Counted from the first letter of the stretch, positions 23,906 to 36,174 are shown. The stretch: DNA of 36,174 nucleotides from Solirubrobacteraceae bacterium (GCA_030690545.1 JAUYGN010000058.1:1-36174), one strand, 5' to 3'. Made by a program: numbers and translations. Notes: a model not told the origin generated them from the letters alone.

Positions 23906-24871
23906 GTGCCTCCGACCTTCTGTCGTCACAACCGCTTCATCGAGAACTGCACGATCTGCGCCCCGAAGCCTTCGCCGGAAGCGCCCAAACGACCGGCTCG
24001 TCCGTCTGGGGCGTCGTCGACGGCGCGCTCCACGGGGCGCAGCACGGCGCGCACGGGACGCAGCAACGCCGTCCGCGTGCGGCAGCTCGCGCAGGCGGCC
24101 GACGATGGCTACCGCTCACCGCTTGCCAGCGGCCTGAAGGCGACCGCCGACGCCGAGCGGCTCGCCGACGAGCTCGCGTTCGCGACCGCCCGCCTGGCGG
24201 AGCTCGCCGCCGACCCGCCGGCGCTGTACGCGGACATCGCGCTGCTCGACGACGCCGACGAAGCGCTGTGGCTCGCGTTCCTCGTGGCGTACCTCGGCCC
24301 GCTCGAGGACGAGCCGGACGCGTTCTCGGCGATCCGCGCGGCACACGTGCCATGGGCGTCGGGTGAGCTGCCGCAGCTCGACGTCGCGCGCGGCCCGCGC
24401 ACCGCGGCCGACGCAGTCACCGGCGAGCGCACGATCGTCGCCTATCGTGCCTGGGCACAGCGCGCCGGGGGTCAGCAGGCGGCGTTCGCCGGCGAGCCGT
24501 CCTGGACGCCCGAGCGGCGCTTCGACCGGCTGTTCGAACGCCTCGCGCTGCCGGGGCTCGGCCGCGGCCCACGCTATGAGCTGCTCGTCTCGCTCGGTCG
24601 GCTGGGCGTCGTGGACATGCGCCCCTCGTCGCTGCAGTTCAGCGACGACGAGACGACGACAGCCGCCAAGCGCGTGTTCGGGATCGGCGACAAGATCCTG
24701 CTCGAGCGCCGGGCGCGGGCGCTGGCCGACGAGCTCGGGCTGCCGATCGAGGCGCTGGACCTAGCGCTGTTCAACTGGAGTGCGCGCGGCGGCAAGCGCG
24801 CGACGTATGGCTCCACGGCCGTCGTGGCCGGCGTGGAGCGCGTCGCGATCGCCGGCGTGCTCGGCGTCTGA
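23906..24871 (+). CDS. hypothetical protein with N-terminal CxHxRF..CxxC motif
   Basis: 321 aa, unassigned. The start reads PPTFCRHNRFIENCTIC, in which C6, H8, C15 and C18 could form a zinc knuckle. A Ser/Thr/Arg-rich linker (about 25-55) follows, then a mostly alpha-helical domain (about 60-321) with a LFERLALPGLGRGPRYELL segment and, near the end, AKRVFGIGDKILLERRA and a conserved-looking FNW. The helical domain with a GLGRGPRYELL turn recalls helix-hairpin-helix / DNA-glycosylase-like folds, but this is only an impression. GTG start chosen because nothing lies upstream in frame and TAGACT precedes it. Confidence 0.75.
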   Translation: MPPTFCRHNRFIENCTICAPKPSPEAPKRPARPSGASSTARSTGRSTARTGRSNAVRVRQLAQAADDGYRSPLASGLKATADAERLADELAFATARLAELAADPPALYADIALLDDADEALWLAFLVAYLGPLEDEPDAFSAIRAAHVPWASGELPQLDVARGPRTAADAVTGERTIVAYRAWAQRAGGQQAAFAGEPSWTPERRFDRLFERLALPGLGRGPRYELLVSLGRLGVVDMRPSSLQFSDDETTTAAKRVFGIGDKILLERRARALADELGLPIEALDLALFNWSARGGKRATYGSTAVVAGVERVAIAGVLGV

Positions 24872-25240: not shown

Positions 25241-25387
25241 GCCGTCGATTCTCGGTGAACGGGGGCATCGCCAAGAAATAGACCGCAAATTGCGACTTTT
25301 ACGCTCGTAGAGGGGGACGAACTTCTGCATACGGTGCCCTAGTGAATGCAGAGGGTCCGATGGAGGCCCGAGCAGAGGGAGACCGTT

Positions 25388-26083
25388 GTGGCGGCAGGGC
25401 AGGGTGGACGGCGAGGAGGTGACGACGCGGAGGACTTGATCCTTCGCACGGTTGGAGCGCACGCCGACTCGCTCCTGCGGACGGCCCGTCGTTTCTCGCT
25501 CTGCCCGGATGATGCCCACGACGCCTACCAGCGAGCGCTCGAGATCTTCCTCGGCCACGCGGAACGGCTCGAGCCCGAACAGGCCGCACGCTGGCTGCAC
25601 GTCGTCGTCAAGCGCGAGGCACAGACGATCCGCCGCTCCCGGCGCAGACTCGTAGGCACCGACAACGCCGACCTGGACGAGCATGAGGCCGGCTGCCATC
25701 CAACGCCCGAGGAGCGGTTGGCGACGTTTGACCTGATCGGGCGCTCGGCCGAGGCGCTTCAACGTCTGAAGCCGCAGGAGCTGCGAGCGCTGTGGCTGCG
25801 CGCTCAAGGCCACAGCTACAACGACATCGGCGCGATCACCGGATGGTCCTATACCAATGTGTGGCACCATCAAGGCATACATGCGTCTCGACGGCTACGT
25901 ACGCGTCTCGCAAACCCGCGGCAGGGTCGGCGACAGCTTCCAATCGCCGACCGCGCAAGCCGATCGCATCAACGCGTGGGCAACCGCGTTCGGCCACCAC
26001 ATCGAGATCCTGCACACCGAGCTCGACGAGTCCGGGGCGCGCCGCGACCGACCGAAGCTCGCCGAAGCGATCCGTCGTGTTGA
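25388..26083 (+). pseudogene. sigma-70 family factor gene truncated in region 4 by an integrated element
   Basis: The GTG at 25388 follows a GAGGGAGA ribosome site; an ATG at 25346 is also in frame. Region 2-like sequence (LLRTARRFSLCPDDAHDAYQRALEIFLGH) and region 4 (ELRALWLRAQGHSYNDIGAITGWSYTNV) are normal up to about base 25860. From V172-W173 (numbered from 25346) the sequence turns into low-complexity Arg/Pro-rich residues, which is simply the integrase gene read in another frame. In this family GWSYTKVNR-like residues continue the recognition helix, so the second half of the HTH and the C-terminus are missing. The product is probably inactive; the remaining host part may lie at attR beyond the window. 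Confidence 0.75.
25841..25880. other. attL attachment-site region of the serine-integrase element
   Basis: Host-like coding of the sigma gene ends within the segment GGATGGTCCTATACCAATGT (25841-25860), and the integrase ATG candidates lie at 25857 and 25881. Large serine integrases typically sit directly beside one attachment site. The exact core dinucleotide cannot be fixed without attR or the unoccupied site. I did not find a second copy of this segment before the right edge. Confidence 0.6.
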
Positions 26084-27368
26084 GGCAGGGGAGAGCGACG
26101 GGATCATCGTCGCGCGACTCGACCGGTTCGGCCGCAGCCTCCTCGACGGCCTCACGCTCATCAACCGCATCCGCGAAGCCGGAGGCACGTTCGTCAGCGT
26201 CGCCGACGGATTCGACCTGTCGACGGACACGGGACGGCTCGTCCTGCGGATCATGCTCAGCCTCGCCGAGTTCGAACTCGACCGATTCCGCGGCCAGTGG
26301 CACGACGCGAAGAGCCGCGCCGTCGCGCGAGGCGTCCACCCGAGCGCGACCGTCCCGTTCGGCTACCAGCGCCGGTCGGACGGGCGCCTCGAGCCGCACC
26401 CCGTGAACGCCCCGCTCGTGACCGAGGTCTTCGCGCGCCGCGCCGCCGGCGACGGCTGCAGCGCGATCGGCCGATGGCTGGAGTCGCAGGGCGCGGTCAC
26501 GCAACGCGGGAACCAGTCGTGGCCGCTGAGAGCCGTCAAGGACATCGTCCGCAACGAGGTGTATCTCGGTGTCGCGCACGCCGCGTCGCGCACAGACCCC
26601 GCCCTTGACATCCGCAACCCCGACGCGCACGAGCCGCTCACCGACCAGCGGACATGGGATCGCGCGCAACGGACCGGCGTGAAGCGCCCGGCCCGCGGGC
26701 ACGAGCCGAACCCCATCGCGCCGCTGATGCGCTGCGCGTCCTGTCGATACGTGATGCGTGCGAGCCGTCATGTGCGGATCTCCGACCAGCGTGTCACGTG
26801 GCGCTTCACGTGCAAGTCGGGGCACTCGAGCGCGCACAGGTGCCCATCGCCCGTGCAGATCACGGACGATGGCGCGTTGACCGGCTGGGTCGAGGACGCG
26901 CTGCGGGCACGCGCGCCGGTCATGCGTGCCGAGGCGAAGCGTGGTGCACCGGGCGTCGCGTCGCTGCGCGAGAAGGCGCAGTTCGCGCAGGCCGCGTTCG
27001 AGGAGTGGCGCGACGACAGCGAGCTGCAGCGTCGACTCGGGATGGCGACGTATGTCACGGGCCTCGCGGCACGCCAAGACGCGTGGGATGAGCTGCTCAA
27101 CGAGCTGTCGCGAGCGGAGATGGCCGCTGACACGAGCGTGCTGCCCGACGACCTGTTGGAGCGCTGGCAGGACCTGCCGGCGGCACGCCGGCGCGAGCTG
27201 CTGCAAGCCTCGATCCGCTGCGTGTTCGCGCGACGCATCGATGACTCAGGCGGCACGCTGGCCTCCCGTCTGCATGTCGTGTGGGCGAGCGAGGCTGTCG
27301 CACTTCCCGCTCCCGGCGGGCGCGGGCCCGCGCCCGGACCGTTCCGGTTCGACGATCACGACGCGTAG
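25881..27368 (+). CDS. int: large serine recombinase (integrase)
   Basis: 495-aa site-specific recombinase that integrates/excises the element. The resolvase domain begins MRLDGYVRVS with catalytic S10; DGIIVARLDRFGRSLLD carries active-site arginines, and a long E helix follows (about 110-150). The recombinase domain follows (ATVPFGYQRRSDGRLEP and RNEVYLGVAH), then a zinc ribbon with CASC and later CKSGH...C, and a coiled-coil plus C-terminal region. Start: ATG at 25881 places the catalytic motif at the usual distance; an ATG at 25857 adds eight residues. It may be read from the disrupted sigma gene's promoter. Its last 123 bases overlap a convergent small gene. Confidence 0.95.
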   Translation: MRLDGYVRVSQTRGRVGDSFQSPTAQADRINAWATAFGHHIEILHTELDESGARRDRPKLAEAIRRVEAGESDGIIVARLDRFGRSLLDGLTLINRIREAGGTFVSVADGFDLSTDTGRLVLRIMLSLAEFELDRFRGQWHDAKSRAVARGVHPSATVPFGYQRRSDGRLEPHPVNAPLVTEVFARRAAGDGCSAIGRWLESQGAVTQRGNQSWPLRAVKDIVRNEVYLGVAHAASRTDPALDIRNPDAHEPLTDQRTWDRAQRTGVKRPARGHEPNPIAPLMRCASCRYVMRASRHVRISDQRVTWRFTCKSGHSSAHRCPSPVQITDDGALTGWVEDALRARAPVMRAEAKRGAPGVASLREKAQFAQAAFEEWRDDSELQRRLGMATYVTGLAARQDAWDELLNELSRAEMAADTSVLPDDLLERWQDLPAARRRELLQASIRCVFARRIDDSGGTLASRLHVVWASEAVALPAPGGRGPAPGPFRFDDHDA

Positions 27369-27464
27369 CCCGGTGAGGTCCGGGTTCTCTTCGCGCAGGA
27401 TCCGCTCCCAGCACGCACGCAGCGACTCCTGCGCGTCACGGGGCATCGGTCCGGGCATGCCCAT
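27246..27464 (-). CDS. small hypothetical protein, last gene of the overlapping set
   Basis: 72 aa, not recognised. The first 40 residues look like a real amphipathic protein (RDAQESLRACWERILREENPDLTGLRVVIVEPE); the rest is low-complexity. Its ATG overlaps the preceding stop as TGATG. Its 3' 123 bases are antisense to the end of the integrase gene, so its transcript could interfere with int expression. Confidence 0.5.
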   Translation of the reverse strand: MGMPGPMPRDAQESLRACWERILREENPDLTGLRVVIVEPERSGRGPAPAGSGKCDSLARPHDMQTGGQRAA

Positions 27465-27640
27465 CACGCCGCTTGCCTGTCGATGTCGACCGGACGGTCG
27501 CCGGACCTGTCGCGCTCGATGAGCGGACAGCCACGCTCGCGCTCGAGGTACGGGTTGCGGGGATGGTCGAGGCCGGCCCGCTCGTCGCAGATACAGAGCT
27601 CCGACCGGCCGATGCCGCAGTCTTCGCAGATCCGGGGCAT
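27464..27640 (-). CDS. small Cys-rich (zinc-ribbon-like) protein
   Basis: 58 aa starting at the ATG at 27640 in a TGATG overlap with the nuclease gene. Cysteines C5, C8, C16 and C18 (CEDC and CIC) form a probable zinc knuckle; the C-terminal half is charged (RERGCPLIERDRSG). No assigned function. Similar small zinc proteins are common in actinobacteriophage early regions. Confidence 0.6.
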   Translation of the reverse strand: MPRICEDCGIGRSELCICDERAGLDHPRNPYLERERGCPLIERDRSGDRPVDIDRQAA

Positions 27641-27966
27641 CACGCAGCATCCTCGGTCGTAACTGGCCACTCGCTGACCGGAATCCACCGGGGCTGCTTA
27701 CGCGGCGGCCACCAGCACAGGATCGGACGGGCGCCCGACTTGACGGCCGCGGCAATCAGGTCCGCGCGATCGGCGGGGCGGAAGTTCGCGAACGGGCCGG
27801 CGACGTCGCTCTTGACCTCGACGAGCAGGGCTTCGCAGCCGGTCGGGGTTGATCGCAGGGCGATGACGTCAGCGTCGCCGAGGGAGCCGGCAGCACGCGC
27901 GGTCCAGTAGCCCTCGGTCTCGAGGAGTCGGCGGACTTGGCGCTCTCGCAGGATGCCGCGGCTCAC
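27640..27966 (-). CDS. Holliday-junction-resolvase-like PD-(D/E)XK nuclease
   Basis: 108 aa from a GTG at 27966 that overlaps the upstream stop (GTGA). The pattern ERQVRRLLETEGYWTARAAGS, GDADVIAL and LLVEVKS matches the Hjc-type fold: E in helix 1, D33 (or D31), then E50 and K52 as the metal/catalytic residues. The C-terminal part (CWWPPRKQPRWIPVSEWP) resembles the tail of small archaeal/phage Hjc-like proteins. Probably acts on branched DNA during element replication or recombination; VRR-NUC is an alternative label. Confidence 0.75.
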   Translation of the reverse strand: MSRGILRERQVRRLLETEGYWTARAAGSLGDADVIALRSTPTGCEALLVEVKSDVAGPFANFRPADRADLIAAAVKSGARPILCWWPPRKQPRWIPVSEWPVTTEDAA

Positions 27967-28310
27967 GTTGTCACTCCTCGAAGGGCTTGTCCCGTGCCGC
28001 TCGGTGCAGCGGCCGGCAACGCGCGGCTGTCCCGAGTCGCTGTGCCGGAGCTCTCACCGATCGCCAGCTTGAGGGTGGCGTTGACGGCACGGGCCAAGAC
28101 GGGGGCGGCGGGTCCCGCGCACACCAGCGGGAGGAGAGCTGTGCGCGGGACCGCCGACCGGCCGGGGCGGGCAGAGTCAGTGACCGTGCCCCGACGTCTC
28201 CCAGCCAACCGTTCGGGCCGAACTGCTGAGAGAGATGGATGCCCGACGATCCGGCCGCCGACGAATGGGTGGCGCGCACATGACGCGGGCAAGGGCAGGA
28301 GGGAGGTCAC
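27963..28310 (-). CDS. hypothetical protein in the overlapping gene set (weak)
   Basis: 115-aa frame from a GTG at 28310. The sequence is poor in recognisable structure and Ala/Arg/Pro-rich. Support comes from position: both ends form GTGA overlaps with flanking genes (at 28307-28310 and 27963-27966). A competing frame inside the same bases (27971-28279) lacks such junctions. Confidence 0.4.
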   Translation of the reverse strand: MTSLLPLPASCARHPFVGGRIVGHPSLSAVRPERLAGRRRGTVTDSARPGRSAVPRTALLPLVCAGPAAPVLARAVNATLKLAIGESSGTATRDSRALPAAAPSGTGQALRGVTT

Positions 28311-28576
28311 GACGCGACCTGCTCACGATGGGGCGGCAGCCGCCGAAGGAGCCGTGCGGCGGCGCCCTCAAGGTCACCGTCGATGCGTTCGCTCACCGAC
28401 TGCTTCGAGCGTTCGCCGACGCGCGTCACGACCAAGGTCGTCATCGGCCGGTACACGGAGCCGTCCGGAAGGCTGCGTGGCGCGGCCTGTGCCTCGATCC
28501 CGGCCCGCAGGCCGCGTTCGTCGACGACGGCCAGCAGGTCGAGGTAGGCGCGAGGCGCTGGACTCATCGCGCTCAC
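28307..28576 (-). CDS. hypothetical protein (89 aa)
   Basis: Starts at a GTG at 28576 in a GTGA overlap with the membrane-protein gene; the longer frame upstream is shadow. It looks like a folded protein: APRAYLDLLAVVDERGLRAGI, then GSVYRPMTTLVVTRVGE, and a helical end (DGDLEGAAARLLRRLPPHRE). Not recognised. Confidence 0.55.
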   Translation of the reverse strand: MSAMSPAPRAYLDLLAVVDERGLRAGIEAQAAPRSLPDGSVYRPMTTLVVTRVGERSKQSVSERIDGDLEGAAARLLRRLPPHREQVAS

Positions 28577-28761
28577 GCGGCCCCACCACCGATGTCGCGG
28601 CGCCCAGCGAACCGGTCGCGGGCATCGACGACGACGCCCGCGGGCGCGCCGGACTGCCGGCGCATATCCCAGCGGATCGCGACGATCGCGAGCGCGAGCA
28701 GCACGAGCGGGAGTGCCCACAGGCCGACGATGACGATCAGGATGATCGTGAGGTCGCTCAC
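28573..28761 (-). CDS. single-pass membrane protein (62 aa)
   Basis: Starts at the GTG at 28761, which overlaps the SWIM gene stop (GTGA). One strong N-terminal hydrophobic helix (about residues 3-29: DLTIILIVIVGLWALPLVLL) is followed by an arginine-rich cytoplasmic segment. Small one-helix proteins of this sort are frequent in phage and element early regions; role unknown. Confidence 0.6.
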   Translation of the reverse strand: MSDLTIILIVIVGLWALPLVLLALAIVAIRWDMRRQSGAPAGVVVDARDRFAGRRDIGGGAA

Positions 28762-28991
28762 GCCGCCACCCCAGCGAGGCCCTCGGCGCACAGTGCCGCG
28801 TCGAGCAGCAGCGCGGCCTCAACGTGTGTGCACAGCTCACGGTGCTCGGGGCACGGGCACATCGCCCATCCGTCACCGATCACGACCCTGTAGGTGCCGT
28901 CGTCACCGACGACGGTGTACGCAGTCGCGGCGCCGATCGGGAACAAGCGCTGCTCCGCGAGGAGGCGGCGGGCCTTGAAGGACGCGGTCAT
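28758..28991 (-). CDS. small SWIM-type zinc-finger protein
   Basis: 77 aa. A beta-hairpin (YTVVGDDGTYRVVIGDG) leads to C45-x-C47-x6-C54-x-H56 (MCPCPEHRELCTHVEAALLL), the CxC...CxH pattern of SWIM domains, which bind zinc and often DNA or protein. Starts with an ATGA overlap (ATG at 28991). Role in the element unknown. Confidence 0.75.
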   Translation of the reverse strand: MTASFKARRLLAEQRLFPIGAATAYTVVGDDGTYRVVIGDGWAMCPCPEHRELCTHVEAALLLDAALCAEGLAGVAA

Positions 28992-29281
28992 CCTCGCCCC
29001 CAGTTGATCGCGATGGCCATGCCGTCAGGGCGATGGAAGATCCGGCAGCGGCCGCGCTCCCGTGGTGTCAGCTCGTCAAGACCGGCCTCGACGCCGCCGG
29101 CGATCCCGTAGTTGATGCCGAGCCGACCGATGTACGCGAAGTACGCGTTGGGCAGGCGCACGTTGCGTAGCCCCGGCGAGGACACGACGATCACGCAGAT
29201 GCCGAGGCGCGAGGCACCGTAGCGCCGCTGAACGATGCCGCCCGCCTCGGACTTGCCGTAGAGGATCGCGGGGACCTTCAC
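28988..29281 (-). CDS. hypothetical protein (97 aa)
   Basis: GTG start at 29281 within a GTGA overlap. Beta-rich sequence (SRLGICVIVVSSPGLRNVRLPNAYF) with an aromatic-rich middle and a C-terminal MAIAINWGRG. It does not match a family that I know. Position and regular composition support a real gene. Confidence 0.6.
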   Translation of the reverse strand: MKVPAILYGKSEAGGIVQRRYGASRLGICVIVVSSPGLRNVRLPNAYFAYIGRLGINYGIAGGVEAGLDELTPRERGRCRIFHRPDGMAIAINWGRG

Positions 29282-29493
29282 GACGCGCTCCGTTCGCGTT
29301 GGCCGCGACGAGCCGCGGCCTCCGTCTTCAGGCGTTCCTGCGTCGCGAGGATCTCTTCGCGCTCGCGGGCCTCCGCGTCACGACGTGCACGCGCCGTGTT
29401 GCGCTTCGGCTTGGCGGCACGATCCCGTTCGCGCTGCTTGAGGCTGCGGCGATGCTGCCGCTGAGCGGCCGTGTCCTGACGCTGCTTTCTCAT
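29278..29493 (-). CDS. small highly basic helical protein
   Basis: 71 aa, about half Arg/Lys/Gln/Glu, predicted to be one long charged helix (RKQRQDTAAQRQHRRSLKQR at the start). It overlaps the upstream gene by ATGA. It might bind nucleic acid, but composition alone cannot show this. Confidence 0.5.
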   Translation of the reverse strand: MRKQRQDTAAQRQHRRSLKQRERDRAAKPKRNTARARRDAEAREREEILATQERLKTEAAARRGQRERSAS

Positions 29494-29723
29494 GACGACG
29501 CCTCGGTGTTGTCGAGCGCGCGACGCGCTGCCGCGACGTCACGCAGCATGACCGCGAGCTCGTCGAGACCGTCGGCCGTCGGATAGATCGTCGTGCTAGT
29601 CGCGCCCGACTTGATCCACAGCTGGACGCAGGCGGCCGCATCCTCTGTCGTCGGATACACGCGAGCGGATAGCGTCGCCGGCTCACCCATCGAGACGGGG
29701 GGCGTGACCTCGTGGTGGCTCAT
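29490..29723 (-). CDS. hypothetical protein (77 aa)
   Basis: ATG at 29723 in an ATGA overlap; the longer frame upstream is not convincing. Alpha/beta look: ATLSARVYPTTEDAAACVQLW, then TTIYPTADGLDELAVMLRDV. Not recognised. Confidence 0.55.
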   Translation of the reverse strand: MSHHEVTPPVSMGEPATLSARVYPTTEDAAACVQLWIKSGATSTTIYPTADGLDELAVMLRDVAAARRALDNTEASS

Positions 29724-30163
29724 GCGGCCACATCCTCGCGCCCAGCGGATCGGGCGCGCCCACACGCATGCAGAAGATCGTGCCGACCCGAGCGAACTTT
29801 CTCGCAGGATGCGGCGTACCGCTGGAGCCCATGGACGTTCTGGTCGCCGCGTGCCCTATACCTCAAGGAGCGCGAGTGTGGATAGCACTCACGACCGCGG
29901 CACGCGGCGACCACAACTTCAGAGACCTGCCCCGCTATCGGGGCGTCCGGAATCCCGGCGGGCATGGGGGTCCAAACCCCGTGGTCCACCCCGTCGAGGA
30001 GAAGCCCTCCGGGCGAGGAAGCGATCGTTCCTCGCCCGGAGGCACCCGTTGCCGGCCGGTTACGGCCCGACTGCAGTCTCATCCTACGAGCGCTCGCGTG
30101 GGGCGCAAGCACAGTCGCCGGACGGAACCGTGTCTGCCGAGCAAATTGCGGAAGCTGCGTCAT
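29720..30163 (-). CDS. uncertain ORF bridging the repressor pair and the small-gene set
   Basis: 147-aa frame whose ATG overlaps the repressor stop (ATGA at 30160-30163) and whose TGA overlaps the next ATG (29720-29723). Those two junctions are its main support: the product is low-complexity with no visible domain, and third-position GC is clearly lower than in confident genes. The segment contains several strong inverted repeats (see 30006-30042), so it may instead be a non-coding structured region. Left as a low-confidence call. Confidence 0.35.
   Translation of the reverse strand: MTQLPQFARQTRFRPATVLAPHASARRMRLQSGRNRPATGASGRGTIASSPGGLLLDGVDHGVWTPMPAGIPDAPIAGQVSEVVVAACRGRECYPHSRSLRYRARGDQNVHGLQRYAASCEKVRSGRHDLLHACGRARSAGREDVAA
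29929..29944. repeat. 6-bp stem hairpin GCCCCG-ctat-CGGGGC
   Basis: Perfect 6-bp inverted repeat with a four-base loop, inside the weakly coding segment between the repressor pair and the small-gene set. It may fold in RNA of either strand; no T-tract follows. Confidence 0.45.
30006..30042. repeat. perfect 15-bp inverted repeat with 7-base loop
   Basis: CCTCCGGGCGAGGAA (30006-30020) pairs fully with 30028-30042 around GCGATCG. This is the strongest hairpin that I noticed in the window. No T-run follows on either strand, so it is not a canonical terminator, though GC-rich actinobacterial terminators may lack one. It could stop or dampen transcription beyond the repressor pair, or be a protein/DNA structure site. 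Confidence 0.7.
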
Positions 30164-30378
30164 GCCGCCACGTCCGAAGAGTCGAGCCTTGAGACACCGA
30201 GGAGCTCAGCGACCGAGATCCCGTAGAAGTCCGCGAGTGCCCTCGCGACCGGAGCGGATGGCTTCGGCTGCTCCGCGGCCTCAAGCGCGCTGATCGTTGG
30301 GCGAGAGACGCCTGCGCCCGAGGCGACCTCGCCGATCGTCAGGCCACGCTCGTAACGCAGCAGCTTGAATAGGTTCAT
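30160..30378 (-). CDS. XRE-family HTH repressor-like protein (second of pair)
   Basis: 72 aa from the ATG at 30378, in an ATGA overlap with the upstream HTH gene. The domain is a compact Cro/C1 HTH: MNLFKLLRYERGLTIGEVA, GVSRPTISALEAAEQ and then PVARALADFYGISVAELLGV. Likely binds the divergent control region and governs the early genes; the specific operator is unknown. Confidence 0.85.
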   Translation of the reverse strand: MNLFKLLRYERGLTIGEVASGAGVSRPTISALEAAEQPKPSAPVARALADFYGISVAELLGVSRLDSSDVAA

Positions 30379-30605
30379 GCCAGCACCCTGCGATTGGCTC
30401 CCAGCGACCACACCTCGGTCGGGCGCATATCAAGCGCCCGTGCCAAGAGAAACTGCACGCGTGGCGTAGGCACAACCCCATCCCGCTCGATCCGGCGAAT
30501 CGTGTGGCCGGACACCCCGGCCGCGTAGCCCAGCTGCTCGGGACTCATCCCGCGGTCGATCCGCATCGACTTGATCTGGGAGGCAGCTAAACGATCTCGA
30601 CTCAC
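30375..30605 (-). CDS. XRE-family HTH protein (first gene of the leftward set)
   Basis: 76 aa from a GTG at 30605. HTH elements: IKSMRIDRGMSPEQLGYAAG, VSGHTIRRIERDG, then a helix LLARALDMRPTEVWSL typical of Cro/C1 proteins. There is no ribosome site; the promoter (TTGACA-N16-TAGACT) places transcription start at the GTG, so the message is probably leaderless. It probably regulates its own promoter and the divergent gene. Confidence 0.85.
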   Translation of the reverse strand: MSRDRLAASQIKSMRIDRGMSPEQLGYAAGVSGHTIRRIERDGVVPTPRVQFLLARALDMRPTEVWSLGANRRVLA

Positions 30606-30685: not shown

Positions 30686-31162
30686 GTGAGTGACCCCAAC
30701 GACCCGATCAGTGCCCTTGAACTCGCCCGCCGTGCTCACTACGCCCGGCGCCTGAAGGCCGGGAAGTGGCTCGCCGGCGACCTGACCTACGCGGGCGGAA
30801 AGGACGGCAGAGGAAAGACAAAGGGTCCGTCGATCGCTGTGAGCGAGATCCGCCAGATCGATTTAGCTGAACGGCTTGAACAGGTCGGCTTTACGCCCTC
30901 CAAGATTGGGTCGATCGAGCGGATGGAGCGCACCACGCAGCCGTACGAGCTCGAGCCCGTTCGCAAGGCACTTGGCCTTCCTGACGGCTGGTTCGACTTC
31001 CGCGGCGTCGACGATCTGCGGCCTTACGAGGTCGCGCTCGCGGAGGTGGCCGCTAGGCGCTTCGCAGGTGCGGCTCACTCGGAAGCCGAGCCGCAACGCG
31101 AGCATCCAGCGCAAGGCGACGAAGATCGTCCCGGCGCGGATGAAGGGGGTGGAGCCCGTTGA
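30686..31162 (+). CDS. HTH-domain regulator-like protein, divergent from the repressor set
   Basis: 158 aa. The central part has an XRE-like HTH: IRQIDLAERLEQVGFTPSKI, GSIERMERTTQP and LEPVRKALGLPDGWFDF. The N-terminal 50 residues are basic and may extend the DNA contact; the last about 40 are Ala/Glu/Gly-rich and overlap a convergent gene, so they may be unstructured. Facing the XRE pair across 80 bases, it has the layout of a Cro/C1-type or excision switch, which is inference. Confidence 0.7.
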   Translation: MSDPNDPISALELARRAHYARRLKAGKWLAGDLTYAGGKDGRGKTKGPSIAVSEIRQIDLAERLEQVGFTPSKIGSIERMERTTQPYELEPVRKALGLPDGWFDFRGVDDLRPYEVALAEVAARRFAGAAHSEAEPQREHPAQGDEDRPGADEGGGAR

Positions 31163-31379: not shown

Positions 31380-31483
31380 ACGTTCCCGCTGCCCGGATTG
31401 CAAGGGGAGGATCGACGCCTGTCGTTGACTGGCCCCATGCTCGTCACATAGGCTCGGGCATCCGGCGACAGGAGCGAGTGTCC

Positions 31484-31915
31484 GTGAACACTTCGAAAAC
31501 TAGAGGCTTCCTGGGGCCCGCTCTCGTTGCACTCGTCCTTGCCTGCGCACTATCGCTCGCTGGCTGCGGTGACGACGATGCCACTTCGGCGACCAAGACG
31601 GTCACCGTCGTTCGGCCCGCCGCCGCCCCTGAGCCCACGTCGGCGACAGCATCCCCAGAATCCCCGCCACCGCCGGCCGCGAAGCCCAGCAATACGATCG
31701 TCGTCCCGGACGTCGTCGGCAAGGATCATCAGCTCGCACAGGACACGATGCAGGCTGCGGGCCTGTACATGCTCGCCGAGGAAGACGCTACCGGCCAAGG
31801 GCGAGCACTCGTGTGGGATCGCAACTGGACGGTCGTCTCTCAATCCCCGAAGCTGGGTGGCCGAGTGGCGCCAGACACCACCATCGTGCTGCGCTCCAAG
31901 AAGGACAACGAGTAG
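31484..31915 (+). CDS. lipoprotein with a PASTA domain
   Basis: 143 aa from the GTG at 31484 (AGGAG at 31470-31474, 9 bases away; a GTG at 31478 is too close to it). A signal peptide with lipobox LSLAGC puts the lipidated cysteine at C28. A Pro/Ala/Thr-rich spacer (about 40-68) follows, then one PASTA domain (about 69-141: IVVPDVVGKDHQLAQDTMQA ... PDTTIVLRSKK). PASTA domains sense muropeptides or beta-lactams in Ser/Thr kinases and PBPs; as an isolated lipoprotein it should sit on the outer face of the membrane. First of three envelope genes in a row. Confidence 0.88.
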   Translation: MNTSKTRGFLGPALVALVLACALSLAGCGDDDATSATKTVTVVRPAAAPEPTSATASPESPPPPAAKPSNTIVVPDVVGKDHQLAQDTMQAAGLYMLAEEDATGQGRALVWDRNWTVVSQSPKLGGRVAPDTTIVLRSKKDNE

Positions 31916-31927
31916 CGAAGTACCTGC

Positions 31928-32575
31928 ATGCCTCCGCCCCCTCCAGCAGGCTGGTTTCGCGATGGCGACGGAGAGCGCTGGTGGAACGGCGAGCAATGGA
32001 CAGACCGCCGACGGTCGCTCGTCGGTGGTCAATGGGTCGAGCACCAAGGCGGCGGTCCGCTGACGCCGCCGTCGCAACTCTCCATCGTCGACTCTGTCGC
32101 GCGAGGCACGCGACGCGTAACGATCGCCCAACGAGCCGCCGCGTTGACCGTTCTTCTCGCTGCCCTCGCCGCTGGCTATGCACTCTTTGCGAGCGACGAC
32201 GAATTGTCCGTCGCAAGCTCTGGCGCAGTGGCGCCTGGGGACGTTGTCGCCAGTTTCCGCGCGGCAAACCTCGAGGTGGGCGAGACGACCCCAATGGGTC
32301 CCAAGGACTATGGGCATGGTCCAGCGGTTGCGACCGAGGGCATTCGGTTTCTGATCCCGTCACTGGGCCGCGACAACGGTGGCCGGGCGATGTCCTTCTC
32401 AAGTGTCGAAGACCTCTGGTCGCTCAAGGAGTACTACGACGGCGTCGGCCGCGCAACAGCAGCCCTGTTCTCCTGGACCTTCGCGAACGAGCAGAGCCTC
32501 GTTCTCGTGCAGATCAACGGGGACTTGCCCGCATCGCAAGCGCATCGATATCGCCGTATCATCGCTGATCTATGA
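31928..32575 (+). CDS. DUF2510-domain membrane protein
   Basis: 215 aa. Residues 5-26 (PPAGWFRDGDGERWWNGEQW) are a DUF2510 motif, usually cytoplasmic and N-terminal to a membrane helix; the helix is at about 69-87 (LTVLLAALAAGYALF). The rest (about 88-215) is extracytoplasmic, with an aromatic middle (WSLKEYYDGV) and no known domain. The gene starts 12 bases after the lipoprotein and its TGA overlaps the next ATG. Confidence 0.85.
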   Translation: MPPPPPAGWFRDGDGERWWNGEQWTDRRRSLVGGQWVEHQGGGPLTPPSQLSIVDSVARGTRRVTIAQRAAALTVLLAALAAGYALFASDDELSVASSGAVAPGDVVASFRAANLEVGETTPMGPKDYGHGPAVATEGIRFLIPSLGRDNGGRAMSFSSVEDLWSLKEYYDGVGRATAALFSWTFANEQSLVLVQINGDLPASQAHRYRRIIADL

Positions 32576-33237
32576 GTCGCCGAGCGAAACTCTATATGTG
32601 GGTTGGAGGCATCCTCGCCAGCCTGATCGTGCTCGCAGCGATCGTCGGCGACGACGAAGCGCGAGAGGCCGCGGTGACCACGACGGTGACGGTCACAACG
32701 CCCGCGCAGCCGCTGCCGCCTCCCAGCGAGCCGGTCGAGCCCACGGAGACGCTCGCGGACGCCCAGAGAGCTGTCGCCGCGAACGAGTACGCCCGAGCAC
32801 TCGCGATCGCTGAGCGCATCGACATGGAGGACACCGTGCGTCAGCGGATCGCGAACCAGCTCGGGCGCCGCGCGGCCGCAGCCGTCAAGCGCGGCGATCG
32901 GCGATCAGCCAGCAGCCTGCTACGTCAGGCCGGCGACTACCCAGGCACGCAGGCGACTACCCAGGCACGCGCGAGTCTCCGCGCGGCGCAGGGGAGGGCG
33001 AGTGCTCGGCGCGCTGCTGCCCGCGCCGCGGCGGAACGGGCGCGTCAGGCGCGCGAGGCGGCACAGGAGCAGGCGGAGACGACGGCGCCGGCGAGTGGCT
33101 GCGACCCGAACTACTCCGGGTGCGTCCCGCCGTACCCGCCGGACGTCAACTGCTCGGACGTCAGCGGTCCGGTCCAGGTGCTCGGCAGCGACCCGCACGG
33201 CTTGGACGGTGACGGCGACGGCATCGGCTGCGAATAG
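32572..33237 (+). CDS. membrane-anchored protein with C-terminal Excalibur-like calcium-binding domain
   Basis: 221 aa; starts in an ATGA overlap. An N-terminal helix (about 8-25: YMWVGGILASLIVLAAIV) anchors it. A Thr/Pro-rich segment, a helical repeat-like part (ADAQRAVAANEYARALAIAE) and a long Ala/Arg-rich coiled coil (about 125-168) follow. The end holds C-rich DPNYSGCVPPYPPDVNC and DGDGDGIGCE, the Excalibur DxDxDGxxCE signature. A 20-base tandem repeat lies in the coiled-coil lead-in. Extracellular location inferred. Confidence 0.85.
   Translation: MSRRAKLYMWVGGILASLIVLAAIVGDDEAREAAVTTTVTVTTPAQPLPPPSEPVEPTETLADAQRAVAANEYARALAIAERIDMEDTVRQRIANQLGRRAAAAVKRGDRRSASSLLRQAGDYPGTQATTQARASLRAAQGRASARRAAARAAAERARQAREAAQEQAETTAPASGCDPNYSGCVPPYPPDVNCSDVSGPVQVLGSDPHGLDGDGDGIGCE
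32932..32971 (+). repeat. 20-base direct repeat inside the Excalibur gene
   Basis: The unit GGCGACTACCCAGGCACGCA (32932-32951) recurs immediately (32952-32971, last base changed). Because 20 is not a multiple of three, the two copies are read in different frames (GDYPGTQ then ATTQAR). Confidence 0.85.
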
Positions 33238-33825
33238 CTAGCGAGCGCGATCAGCCGGCGCGGAAGAACTGGGCACATCATCGGTGGGCTGCTCAGCTTT
33301 GCCTTCCATCCCGCTATCAGTGTCGCGCCGCACCGCCCAGATCATCGCACCGAGACCGACGGCAGCCCCGGCGATGCCCTCCCACGCGTAGCCGCTCAGA
33401 ACGGCGGCGAACATGATGGCTTCGTACCCGGTGCCTAGCGCCAAAGAGATGTAGTGCCCACGGCGCTGCCCCTCGTAGAACTTCGGCATCGCGACTTCGT
33501 CGAGATGAGCAAGGCGCGACTCGATCTCGTGACGATGTGCCTGTTCGCGCTCACCGGCAGCGAGAAGGCGCTCGGGCGCGTCGGACAACATCGCGCTGTA
33601 GCGCTCAAGGTCGTCCGGTGAAGGGAGCGGGCTGACATAGCGGGACTCCTGCCAGCCGACGTCAAGCCTGCGTGATTCCTGTCCGGACCGCCGTGGGGGT
33701 CCAACTACCTGCCCATCCAAGACCTCATCTGGGTCGTGGCGCAGGCCTGTCTCCTTGTCGGCGCTCCCGCCGCTAGGTGTTGCCACGATCAGCGCGACCG
33801 ACGTCGCCCTTGACGCGAGCAACAT
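33238..33825 (-). CDS. DUF2335 family membrane protein
   Basis: 195 aa from the first ATG-type start; the N-terminal 60 residues are not conserved-looking, so the true start may be further in. The core matches DUF2335: SPLPSPDDLERYSAMLSDAPERLL, a conserved HRHEIESRL helix, GQRRGHYISLAL, then two membrane segments (about 128-165). The function is unknown; such proteins often occur in phages and islands. Its stop abuts that of the Excalibur gene (convergent). Confidence 0.8.
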   Translation of the reverse strand: MLLASRATSVALIVATPSGGSADKETGLRHDPDEVLDGQVVGPPRRSGQESRRLDVGWQESRYVSPLPSPDDLERYSAMLSDAPERLLAAGEREQAHRHEIESRLAHLDEVAMPKFYEGQRRGHYISLALGTGYEAIMFAAVLSGYAWEGIAGAAVGLGAMIWAVRRDTDSGMEGKAEQPTDDVPSSSAPADRAR

Positions 33826-34289
33826 CGCCGTAGCGCGCGGCCCGGTCGGTGCGCGGCGATCCCACGTTCCTGTGGACGCGAACGGGGGCCGTTCTGTAGG
33901 AGCCGCCGCTCAGGACGCCAGCCACGCCGGACCGGAACCCGGCCCGCTGGGCGCTACGGAGCGTGGCGAGATCGGAGAAGCTGGGCATGGTTCCCATCCT
34001 AGGGCCACTGCGGTGGACGCGCGCACGTAACATGCGTTCGCATGGACGATTGATCCACGGGCAGCGTAATACATCCGCACGCGGAAGGGGCGTATACGTG
34101 CCGCGCGGCGGAGCTCTTGCGGAACCGCGTCGATCGCCCAGACCCGTACGCATCGCGAGCGGCAGACCTCTCCGGTCCTGCGTTCGAGGCCGCGGGGGGG
34201 TCCTCCCCCCTGTGTCCGCAGCTGCTGCGCGCCGGTGGGACGGTGCCGCGACTTGACGCCGGCTCCCGTGTCGTAGAGGCTTGATCCCG
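33826..34289. other. 464-base stretch without a confident gene
   Basis: Between the DUF2335 start and the next gene there is no convincing coding region. A minus-strand frame from an ATG at 33988 (GGATGGG ahead; 33773-33988, MPSFSDLATLRSAQ...) is possible but overlaps the DUF2335 start region. The 3' part has a G-run/C-run hairpin at 34194-34210. Promoters of both flanking genes should lie here. Confidence 0.5.
34194..34210. repeat. G7-TCCT-C6 hairpin
   Basis: A run of seven G, then TCCT, then six C, can form a six-pair stem with a tight loop. No T-tract follows. It could be a GC-rich terminator or a slippery mutation-prone site. Confidence 0.4.
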
Positions 34290-34652
34290 ATGAGACTCAG
34301 GCGCGCTGTTCCTGCCGGTCTGTTGGTGGCCGTGATCCTCTCGGCGCCGGCCTCGGCGTCCGCGCTGGAGCGTGCGCCCGTCGGCTACACGTGGTGTGGC
34401 TACCGCGACTTCGTGACGAACGAGTGGTCACGCAACGTGACGCCGGATGGTGCGTTCATGGTCGCGTACGCACGCGGCATGACGTGCGCCGCAGCGATCC
34501 GCAACGCACGGCGCGTCACGTTCGCTCGCGGGGGGCCGCGCCGCCCGGGCTACCGGTGCTTGACGATGCGGTCCGCACATGAGTTCCTTGACTATCGGTG
34601 CACGGCTCGCTCGGGCAAGCGTCGCGCGTTTCGGGTTCGCACCGGCGCGTAG
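34290..34652 (+). CDS. small secreted four-cysteine protein
   Basis: 120 aa from the ATG at 34290 (a TTG at 34281 is in frame). A classical signal peptide (MRLRRAVPAGLLVAVILSAP, cleavage near ASASA at 22-26) precedes a basic domain with C36, C66, C90 and C104, probably two disulfides. Not recognised by name, though small secreted Cys proteins of this layout are common in Thermoleophilia. Isolated on the plus strand. Confidence 0.7.
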   Translation: MRLRRAVPAGLLVAVILSAPASASALERAPVGYTWCGYRDFVTNEWSRNVTPDGAFMVAYARGMTCAAAIRNARRVTFARGGPRRPGYRCLTMRSAHEFLDYRCTARSGKRRAFRVRTGA

Positions 34653-34696
34653 CCAGCGGACGTCCGCTCGCGCCCGCGACGGACGCGGCGGGCCGC

Positions 34697-35134
34697 CTAC
34701 TCCGAGGATGGATTCAGCCCGGGTGGGGGCCCGATCGCGATGTGGAGTGGGACCGACTTGCTCGATTCGTCGACGATGTGCTCAAAGGTGTACGTACCGG
34801 GTTCCGTCGCCTCGAACTGGATCATCGTGACGAGCGCCACGCCGTTCAGCCACTCCGTGCGCGCGGAGTCAGCTTCCGCTGTCGTCCCGACCTGGAACGG
34901 TCCGCCCAGGTCGCTGAGCGGACCGCCGGAGGGGTCTCGGATGATATTCCGGACGGTGTGCGTGTGATCTGGGCCGAGTTCGTCAGATGCCGCGAGCAGG
35001 CGAACGACGATGCCGACCTGCACTGTGGCCGGCAGCGTCGGAAACCACCAAGTGTCGATCCCCGCGCCGACGATGGTCGCGAGGTTGTCGTGGACCTCCG
35101 CGTAGCGACACGGAATGATCCAGTCAATGTTCAC
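34697..35134 (-). CDS. DUF6941 family protein
   Basis: 145 aa from a GTG at 35134 that overlaps the preceding stop (GTGA). The start MNIDWIIPCRYAEVHDNLAT and the following beta-rich sequence with GAGIDTWWFP resemble DUF6941 proteins, which look like small beta-sandwich proteins of unknown role. No signal peptide. Ends near a 44-base gap before the secreted protein gene (convergent). Confidence 0.75.
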   Translation of the reverse strand: MNIDWIIPCRYAEVHDNLATIVGAGIDTWWFPTLPATVQVGIVVRLLAASDELGPDHTHTVRNIIRDPSGGPLSDLGGPFQVGTTAEADSARTEWLNGVALVTMIQFEATEPGTYTFEHIVDESSKSVPLHIAIGPPPGLNPSSE

Positions 35135-35277
35135 CGGGCCGGCGAGCCACCGCTGCTGGTGACCTGACCGCGCTGTGCCGCGAGAGCTTCGACGACCTTC
35201 TTGTCGCTCACGCTCCCCTGTGCGACGACGGTGACGGTCTGCTTGACGTGGTCAAAGACCATGATCGGGCTCTGCAT
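35131..35277 (-). CDS. 48-aa protein coupled to the DUF6941 gene
   Basis: ATG at 35277 with a strong GGGAGG site 7-8 bases upstream. The sequence MQSPIMVFDHVKQTVTVVAQ then GSVSDKKVVEALAAQRGQ looks like two strands plus a helix. The stop overlaps the DUF6941 start by GTGA. Not recognised; the longer frame above it is shadow. Confidence 0.6.
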   Translation of the reverse strand: MQSPIMVFDHVKQTVTVVAQGSVSDKKVVEALAAQRGQVTSSGGSPAR

Positions 35278-35384
35278 TGGCTGCCTCCCGGTTGGACGTG
35301 GAAGAGATCGGCCGAGGTCCGCGTATGGCCTCTGTCGCGAGTCTCGTTGCACCCAGCAGTCTTGCACGCTGGGCGCAAGACGAC

Positions 35385-35417
35385 AAAGAGCCCCGCCAGC
35401 ACGATGGCTGACGGGGC
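35385..35417 (-). terminator. rho-independent terminator after the transglycosylase-like gene
   Basis: On the minus strand, GCCCCGTCAGC pairs with GCTGGCGGGGC (one G-U) around a CATCGT loop (35417-35390), followed by TCTTT. It is downstream of the gene ending at 35451, so it should end that transcript. Confidence 0.75.
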
Positions 35418-35422
35418 GCAGG

Positions 35423-35438
35423 TATGCAGATCTGCATA
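35423..35438. repeat. perfect 16-bp palindrome TATGCAGATCTGCATA
   Basis: Fully self-complementary with no spacer, between the gene stop at 35451 and its terminator. It stands out as AT-balanced in a GC-rich setting and looks like an operator for a dimeric protein, although its place after a gene is unusual. Confidence 0.6.
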
Positions 35439-35450
35439 GTCGCGGGGGGG

Positions 35451-35894
35451 CTATCGCAAACATTGCGTCCAGTGGCGGGCGCCGCGCCCGCCCGCCCACA
35501 AGCGGTGCGCGATCCTGTGATGCGCGAGCCGCCGTGCCGGCGTGTTCGCCGGCCACGGCCTGCCGTGTAGCTGCATCAGTTGGTAGCGGCCGGCGGCACC
35601 AGACGGGTTGAGCGCTGTCCAGCTGCCGCGGCTCTCGCACATCACGATCGCGCACGGAATGGCTGAGCGGCCGAACGAGCAGCGGTACGGCGTCAGGCGC
35701 CGGGTCTCGCGAGCGATGCGCTTCGCTCGCACCCGGTAGACGCAGCGCATGCTCGTGCAGCCGCCGTGACGCTTGACGAACTCGCGCTGCTTGACGCGCT
35801 CCCGGCATGCCTTGCCGCACGAGGCAGCATCGGCGATCGTGGGCGCAGCGGTGAGTGCCGCGGCCACGACGGCCGCGGTGACGATGAGTCGGAT
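35451..35894 (-). CDS. secreted transglycosylase-like (Rpf/lysozyme-type) protein
   Basis: Peptidoglycan-cleaving domain at the C-terminus: CESRGSW, then NPSGAAGRYQLMQLHG, the pattern of Rpf/transglycosylase-like enzymes, with the catalytic Glu in CES. Upstream are several cysteines and a basic region. The earliest standard start is a GTG at 35867 (138 aa), but this cuts the signal peptide. An ideal AGGAGG (35909-35904) points instead to an ATC at 35894, which would give IRLIVTAAVVAAALTAAP, a good signal peptide (147 aa). Coordinates follow that choice; it is uncertain. A terminator follows at 35385-35417. In a phage it would be a lysin or moron; in an integrative element, a wall-opening enzyme. 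Confidence 0.75.
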   Translation of the reverse strand: MRLIVTAAVVAAALTAAPTIADAASCGKACRERVKQREFVKRHGGCTSMRCVYRVRAKRIARETRRLTPYRCSFGRSAIPCAIVMCESRGSWTALNPSGAAGRYQLMQLHGRPWPANTPARRLAHHRIAHRLWAGGRGARHWTQCLR

Positions 35895-35966
35895 GAGGTC
35901 GTGCCTCCTGCTTCGGGTCGCGTGCCCGCTACGGAGCGCGCCGAGCCGGCCGCCCTGGCGGCCTCT

Positions 35967-36035
35967 CTAGTGCCGCCGGCCGACGCGCGCGACCCAGAGG
36001 AACACGCGCGCCGAGATGCCAGCAAGCAGCTTCAT
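35967..36035 (-). CDS. 22-aa hydrophobic microprotein candidate
   Basis: MKLLAGISARVFLWVARVGR followed by two residues and a TAG. The ATG overlaps the TGA of the upstream frame (ATGA at 36032-36035), repeating the coupling style of the element. Size makes this tentative. Confidence 0.3.
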   Translation of the reverse strand: MKLLAGISARVFLWVARVGRRH

Positions 36036-36174
36036 CGGGTGCGGGCGAGCAGCGACGCGTAGCGCCTGTGGCGCTGCAAGTGCGACCACCCGCGACCATC
36101 ACCAGTCGGTGGTGGCTGGGCGGCGCGCCAGATCCGCTTGCGTTGCTCCACCAGCACGCGCACGAGGACCTCCT
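36032..36174 (-). CDS. small basic ORF, possibly continuing past the right edge
   Basis: Reading from the edge: VLVRVLVEQRKRIWRAAQPP and a basic tail, ending at the TGA at 36032. Within the window a GTG at 36163 with AGGAGG 5 bases ahead would start a 43-aa protein, but the frame stays open to the edge, so it may be the C-terminus of a larger protein. Not recognised. Confidence 0.35.
   Translation of the reverse strand, partial: EVLVRVLVEQRKRIWRAAQPPPTGDGRGWSHLQRHRRYASLLARTR

Follow-up and report, generated by a model that had tools for sequence, protein, structure and literature searches.

How many genes does a chain of overlapping stop and start codons contain, how are they translated, and to what kind of element do they belong? 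These questions are raised by the reverse strand between positions 30605 and 27246 of a contig from Solirubrobacteraceae bacterium (GCA_030690545.1, JAUYGN010000058.1), the 36,174 nucleotides of which were analysed as a whole and are referred to here as the window. A preliminary description of this DNA had proposed an unusual cassette of up to thirteen small genes without a single intergenic base, strictly coupled in translation from one leaderless start.

Overlapping frames and coding signal

All of the twelve proposed overlaps could be read from the minus strand where they had been placed, namely ATGA at 30378-30375, 30163-30160, 29723-29720, 29493-29490 and 28991-28988, GTGA at 29281, 28761, 28576, 28310 and 27966, and TGATG at 27642-27638 and 27466-27462. 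When a chain is defined as ORFs of at least 40 aa joined by 4- or 1-nt overlaps, dinucleotide shuffles never gave one of 13 ORFs; over 500 of them, the mean was 2.6 and the maximum 6. Among 3.5-kb tiles, one lying over part of the cassette gave a chain of 10, and the longest in any other tile of the window was 3.

The thirteen genes without an intergenic base were not borne out by the coding statistics, as ORF 3 (29720..30163, minus strand) and ORF 10 (27963..28310, minus strand) carry no coding signal and, despite being open, are almost certainly not genes. The clearest statistic was the frame contrast, which measures how widely a codon-usage score varies across the six frames and was compared with shuffled sequence. 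It was preferred to a codon log-likelihood control because the latter was noisy for the related lower-GC loci L092 and L094. The frame contrast was equal to that of shuffles in ORF 3 (0.13, P=0.54) and ORF 10 (0.12, P=0.67), whereas it ranged from 0.40 to 0.72 in the other eleven ORFs (each P<=0.02). GC content was flat across the codon positions of ORF 3 (0.72/0.61/0.70) and ORF 10 (0.72/0.70/0.73), with a rise at position 3 present in most other cassette ORFs, and GC at position 2 reached 0.61 and 0.70, respectively, compared with a maximum of 0.59 in all the others. Periodicity relative to mononucleotide shuffles was absent or marginal in the two frames (p=0.22 for ORF 3, p=0.04 for ORF 10) and had p values of 0.0002 to 0.04 in the other eleven, the weakest being g1 (p=0.03) and g13 (p=0.04). 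Searches of Pfam and PHROGs returned no match for either frame.

The cassette therefore most likely holds eleven small genes, grouped as g1-g2 (one junction), g4-g9 (five junctions) and g11-g13 (two junctions); these three runs are kept apart by two structured stretches, about 436 and 340 nt long, that show no sign of coding. Real couplings account for 8 of the 12 claimed, and when only the 11 coding ORFs are considered, 8 of their 10 junctions are overlaps of 4 or 1 nt. The overlaps had also been recommended as a means of calling genes that otherwise look weak, a use that proved misleading here by promoting two non-genes (ORFs 3 and 10). Since a long series of stop/start overlaps in high-GC DNA may owe part of its length to non-genes, overlap alone is unfit for this purpose.

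The gene content had been described more accurately: a compact reverse-strand cassette encoding two XRE-type regulators together with SWIM-like, Hjc-like, Cys-rich and one-TM proteins. The first run comprises g1 (30375..30605), an XRE-type regulator by Pfam with a GTG start and a putative leaderless transcript, and g2 (30160..30378), a second, coding, XRE-type regulator (Pfam HTH_31, E=4e-13) coupled to g1 by ATGA. The six-gene run is headed by g4 (29490..29723), which is coding, has GAGG upstream and shows very weak similarity to DUF6907; it continues with g5 (29278..29493), an Arg/Lys/Glu-rich coil-like protein, g6 (28988..29281), an orphan of 97 aa, g7 (28758..28991), a SWIM-like CxCx(n)CxH protein whose motif was recognized by eye in the absence of a Pfam match, and g8 (28573..28761), a small protein with one TM segment, also identified by eye, and ends with g9 (28307..28576), an orphan of 89 aa; g5 to g9 all have coding signal. 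The last run contains g11 (27640..27966), a Hjc-like Holliday-junction resolvase/nuclease (Pfam Hjc, E=1e-6, 28.9 bits against a cut-off of 21.1) with its own Shine-Dalgarno motif, g12 (27464..27640), a coding Cys-rich zinc-ribbon-like small protein coupled by TGATG, and the small protein g13 (27246..27464), whose 3' 123 nt (27246-27368) lie antisense to the 3' end of the recombinase gene and which shows a clear coding signal only outside this overlap. Apart from the XRE and Hjc proteins, the cassette proteins yielded no relatives in searches of viral contigs, genome contigs, phages, plasmids and 146 genomes of the family, and the Hjc-like protein had only marginal matches within the order. 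Evidence of function by homology is thus thin, and roles for g4-g9, g12 and g13, as well as expression of the cassette, may only be conjectured.

Structured gaps

The stretches occupied by ORF 3 (gap A) and ORF 10 (gap B) are more strongly folded than shuffled sequence, with energies 4.0 SD (z=-4.0) and 2.65 SD below shuffles, respectively, and sliding-window extremes at about 29925-29826, 30045-29946 and 28205-28066. Near 30045-29985, gap A contains a terminator-like hairpin of 15 bp; a second, long hairpin has arms of 22 nt (29920-29899/29855-29834). In the fold of gap A, the 15-bp hairpin is accompanied by a 15-bp stem enclosing an inner hairpin. Gap B contains a 12-bp hairpin, GTCCCGCGCACA...TGTGCGCGGGAC, and its 3' end is the GAGGAG Shine-Dalgarno motif of g11. 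For a non-coding stretch, shuffles put the chance of staying open in register at about 0.06 x 1/3 in gap A and 0.41 x 1/3 in gap B, giving a joint chance of ~0.3% for a fixed pair; this figure counts against the non-coding reading, but is tempered by the fact that the longest chain had been picked for the preliminary description.

Such folding suggests that the gaps might be more than spacers and serve the element as structured RNAs with a function of their own or as sites of regulation; candidates would be small RNAs, conditional terminators, processing sites and protein-binding palindromes. This reading would be compatible with the three-run cassette and is a tentative possibility, although on balance somewhat doubtful: no Rfam match was obtained above the gathering score, and searches for relatives of the gap or cassette DNA yielded only short matches, none spanning a whole gap in phage records and none representing a gap relative in whole-cassette searches of plasmids and the genus. 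A search of the gaps for tRNAs also found none. It is rather improbable, and should be regarded as speculation, that the gaps are dedicated RNA elements of a prophage early operon (conditional terminator, antitermination or processing sites, small RNAs), by which one transcript would deliver regulator, middle and nuclease modules, with the open frames letting ribosomes read through and thereby keeping or breaking the coupling.

Integration site and related elements

To the left of the cassette lies the N-terminal part of a sigma-factor gene (25346..25861, plus strand; Pfam Sigma70_r2 and r4), with which orthologues align up to residue 172. The gene breaks off in region 4 at 'GWSYTNV', where intact orthologues of the genus go on with 'GWSYTKVNRCLTEGRR...', and its 3' half was not found in this assembly. 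Directly after the break is the gene of a large serine recombinase (25881..27368, plus strand, convergent with the cassette; Pfam Resolvase E=2e-27 and Recombinase E=3e-13), which matches phage serine integrases by tblastn. In skin-type elements, a serine recombinase likewise interrupts a sigma-factor gene (sigK in B. subtilis). The likeness seen here consists of a serine-recombinase element splitting a sigma gene, with no sign of developmental excision; the present locus differs in that another sigma gene is involved and the 3' half is missing from the assembly.

Two observations on the sigma gene and its surroundings may be added. In a genome of the same genus (G004, locus L041), the similarity of the sigma orthologue ends abruptly as well, though at another codon, 'ALWLRAQG|VRRQ', which suggests another interruption or truncation in this sister genome. 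Just left of the sigma gene in the window, positions 23906-24871 match Pfam aGPT-Pplase3 (E=1e-10), the alpha-glutamyl/putrescinyl thymine pyrophosphorylase clade 3 family, whose name refers to hypermodified DNA bases.

Of 232 genomes of the order, 26, the present one included, have related recombinases (E<=1e-30). Those of L078 (another genus) and L082 (another family), which are 44-46% and 35-37% identical to the recombinase of the window, lie directly behind the same sigma gene, cut at most two codons from the break in the window. Region 4 of this sigma-factor gene thus appears to be a conserved skin-like target common to serine-recombinase elements across genera of one order, indicating a group of such elements with one common target.

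One of these elements was found in genome G126 (L078, L109 and L110; same family, another genus); its recombinase is 46% identical, and 40 kb separate the break from the sigma 3' half on the right. Both ends of this 40-kb interval have in common a 13-nt core, GACGAAGGTCAAC, and between them lie genes for large terminase, portal, tail sheath, tape measure and baseplate proteins; the element is a prophage, myovirus-like. Like the window, it carries next to the recombinase a cassette on the opposite strand in which an XRE gene is followed by an ATGA/GTGA-linked chain, here of 8 ORFs; unlike the window, the chain includes a DnaB-type helicase and other larger genes, and only the XRE protein is similar. 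The same prophage region has a second integrase-like gene nearer its right end (L110:7273-8511; phrog_1, E=7e-64). Linked ORFs also lie beside related recombinases at L084, L094 and L092. The 8 at L084 include genes for a PD-(D/E)XK nuclease, an HNH protein and an AAA ATPase, the 7 at L094 include those for an HNH protein and a small terminase, and there are 6 at L092. Some of the related chains have a first ORF that begins before the likely true start, and the coding test is noisy in L092 and L094.

To the right of the cassette, a divergent gene (30686..31162, plus strand) encodes a 158-aa protein without a Pfam or PHROGs match. Based on an XRE-like helix-turn-helix recognized by eye, in contrast to the Pfam assignments of g1 and g2, it is a probable repressor opposing g1. 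Beyond it, genes for a PASTA lipoprotein and for DUF2510-like, Excalibur-like, DUF2335 and other proteins (31478..36174; Pfam and PHROGs) have PHROGs matches ranging from weak to strong, among them phrog_8870 (E=1e-24) and phrog_3996 (E=7e-14), which is consistent with phage accessory genes, and this region is likely still inside the element. No structural phage genes (capsid, terminase, tail) were found in the window, with ~10 kb of the element on the contig, which ends at 36174.

Taken together, the cassette is probably the early or regulatory operon of a prophage-like element that was integrated by its serine recombinase into the sigma-factor gene, with three locally coupled runs and two untranslated gaps. 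The prophage reading is supported by the same sigma target and a related recombinase in the 40-kb prophage of G126; phage ancestry of the present copy, a lysogeny-type switch, a terminator role of gap A and expression are what we infer from this arrangement. Alternatively, the absence of structural phage genes from the window and of the sigma 3' half from the assembly would fit a small non-phage integrative element of ~5.3 kb, consisting of recombinase, cassette and repressor, with host genes from ~31.2 kb and the sigma 3' half deleted. This is unlikely, given the target and recombinase in common with a myovirus-like prophage and the PHROGs matches on the right-hand side.

Starts, coupling and organisation

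A scan of 25.8-31.5 kb revealed a single promoter-like site, TTGACA-16-TAGACT (30640-30613), whose TAGACT ends 7 nt before the GTG of g1 at 30605. With a Shine-Dalgarno duplex of +0.4 kcal/mol, g1 has no Shine-Dalgarno motif and thus shows the arrangement expected of a leaderless mRNA, in which the start codon lacks such a motif and follows a -10 element at a distance of 6-9 nt. Because of this spacing and lack of a motif, the leaderless start proposed for the first gene is plausible. Shine-Dalgarno-like motifs precede most internal starts, being clearest for g7 and g11 and moderate for the others; the GAGGAG of g11 forms a duplex of -8.2 kcal/mol (top 2% of positions), and the GAGG of g4, after gap A, is in the top 8% of positions. 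Strict dependence of the whole set on the single leaderless start is thus unsupported, with two of the links crossing non-coding structured gaps. Within the runs, local coupling of neighbours is likely, since translation proved to be coupled in 13 of the 14 pairs that were examined for this type of stop/start overlap (PMC6728339). That all thirteen ORFs are genes under strict reinitiation throughout from that one start is very improbable, for although every overlap is present, no shuffle yields the chain and ORF 3 stays open by chance in just 6% of shuffles, ORFs 3 and 10 lack the codon frame preference of the other eleven and hold strong hairpins, and g11 and most other genes have clear or moderate Shine-Dalgarno motifs of their own.

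For the prophage-like element, the following course of events may be proposed. After serine-recombinase-mediated integration into the sigma-factor gene, the divergent XRE-like pair, with the 158-aa protein on the right and g1-g2 under the leaderless promoter on the left, could form a lysogeny-type switch. Leftward transcription from g1 would produce a polycistronic RNA carrying the Hjc-like nuclease and small orphan proteins, in which g1-g2, g4-g9 and g11-g13 would be coupled locally by termination-reinitiation at 4- or 1-nt overlaps, mostly aided by Shine-Dalgarno-like motifs within the upstream gene. The two untranslated structured gaps would part the three runs. Once the regulators have been transcribed, the terminator-like hairpin of gap A may dose, attenuate or stop further transcription, and the genes that follow each gap would start from ribosome sites of their own.

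The description of this cassette as unusual was overstated, as comparable runs occur in the related prophage cassettes and in an annotated actinophage. Stop-start overlaps of this kind are ordinary in phage operons; the cassette is ordinary in organisation and orphan in gene content. Among phage records, the best match to the recombinase was the integrase of the temperate Streptomyces phage HFrancette (NC_073487; 28.6% identical), which resembles the window in having a serine integrase and an HTH-led operon of small uncharacterised genes, and which has divergent HTH regulators comparable to the putative pair of the window. It differs in encoding no relatives of the cassette proteins beyond generic HTH proteins, and the cassette of the window, unlike its counterpart in HFrancette, faces the integrase. 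In the early operon of HFrancette, 13 of 26 junctions (50%) are at -1 or -4 and the longest run has 5 junctions, the same as the longest real run in the cassette.
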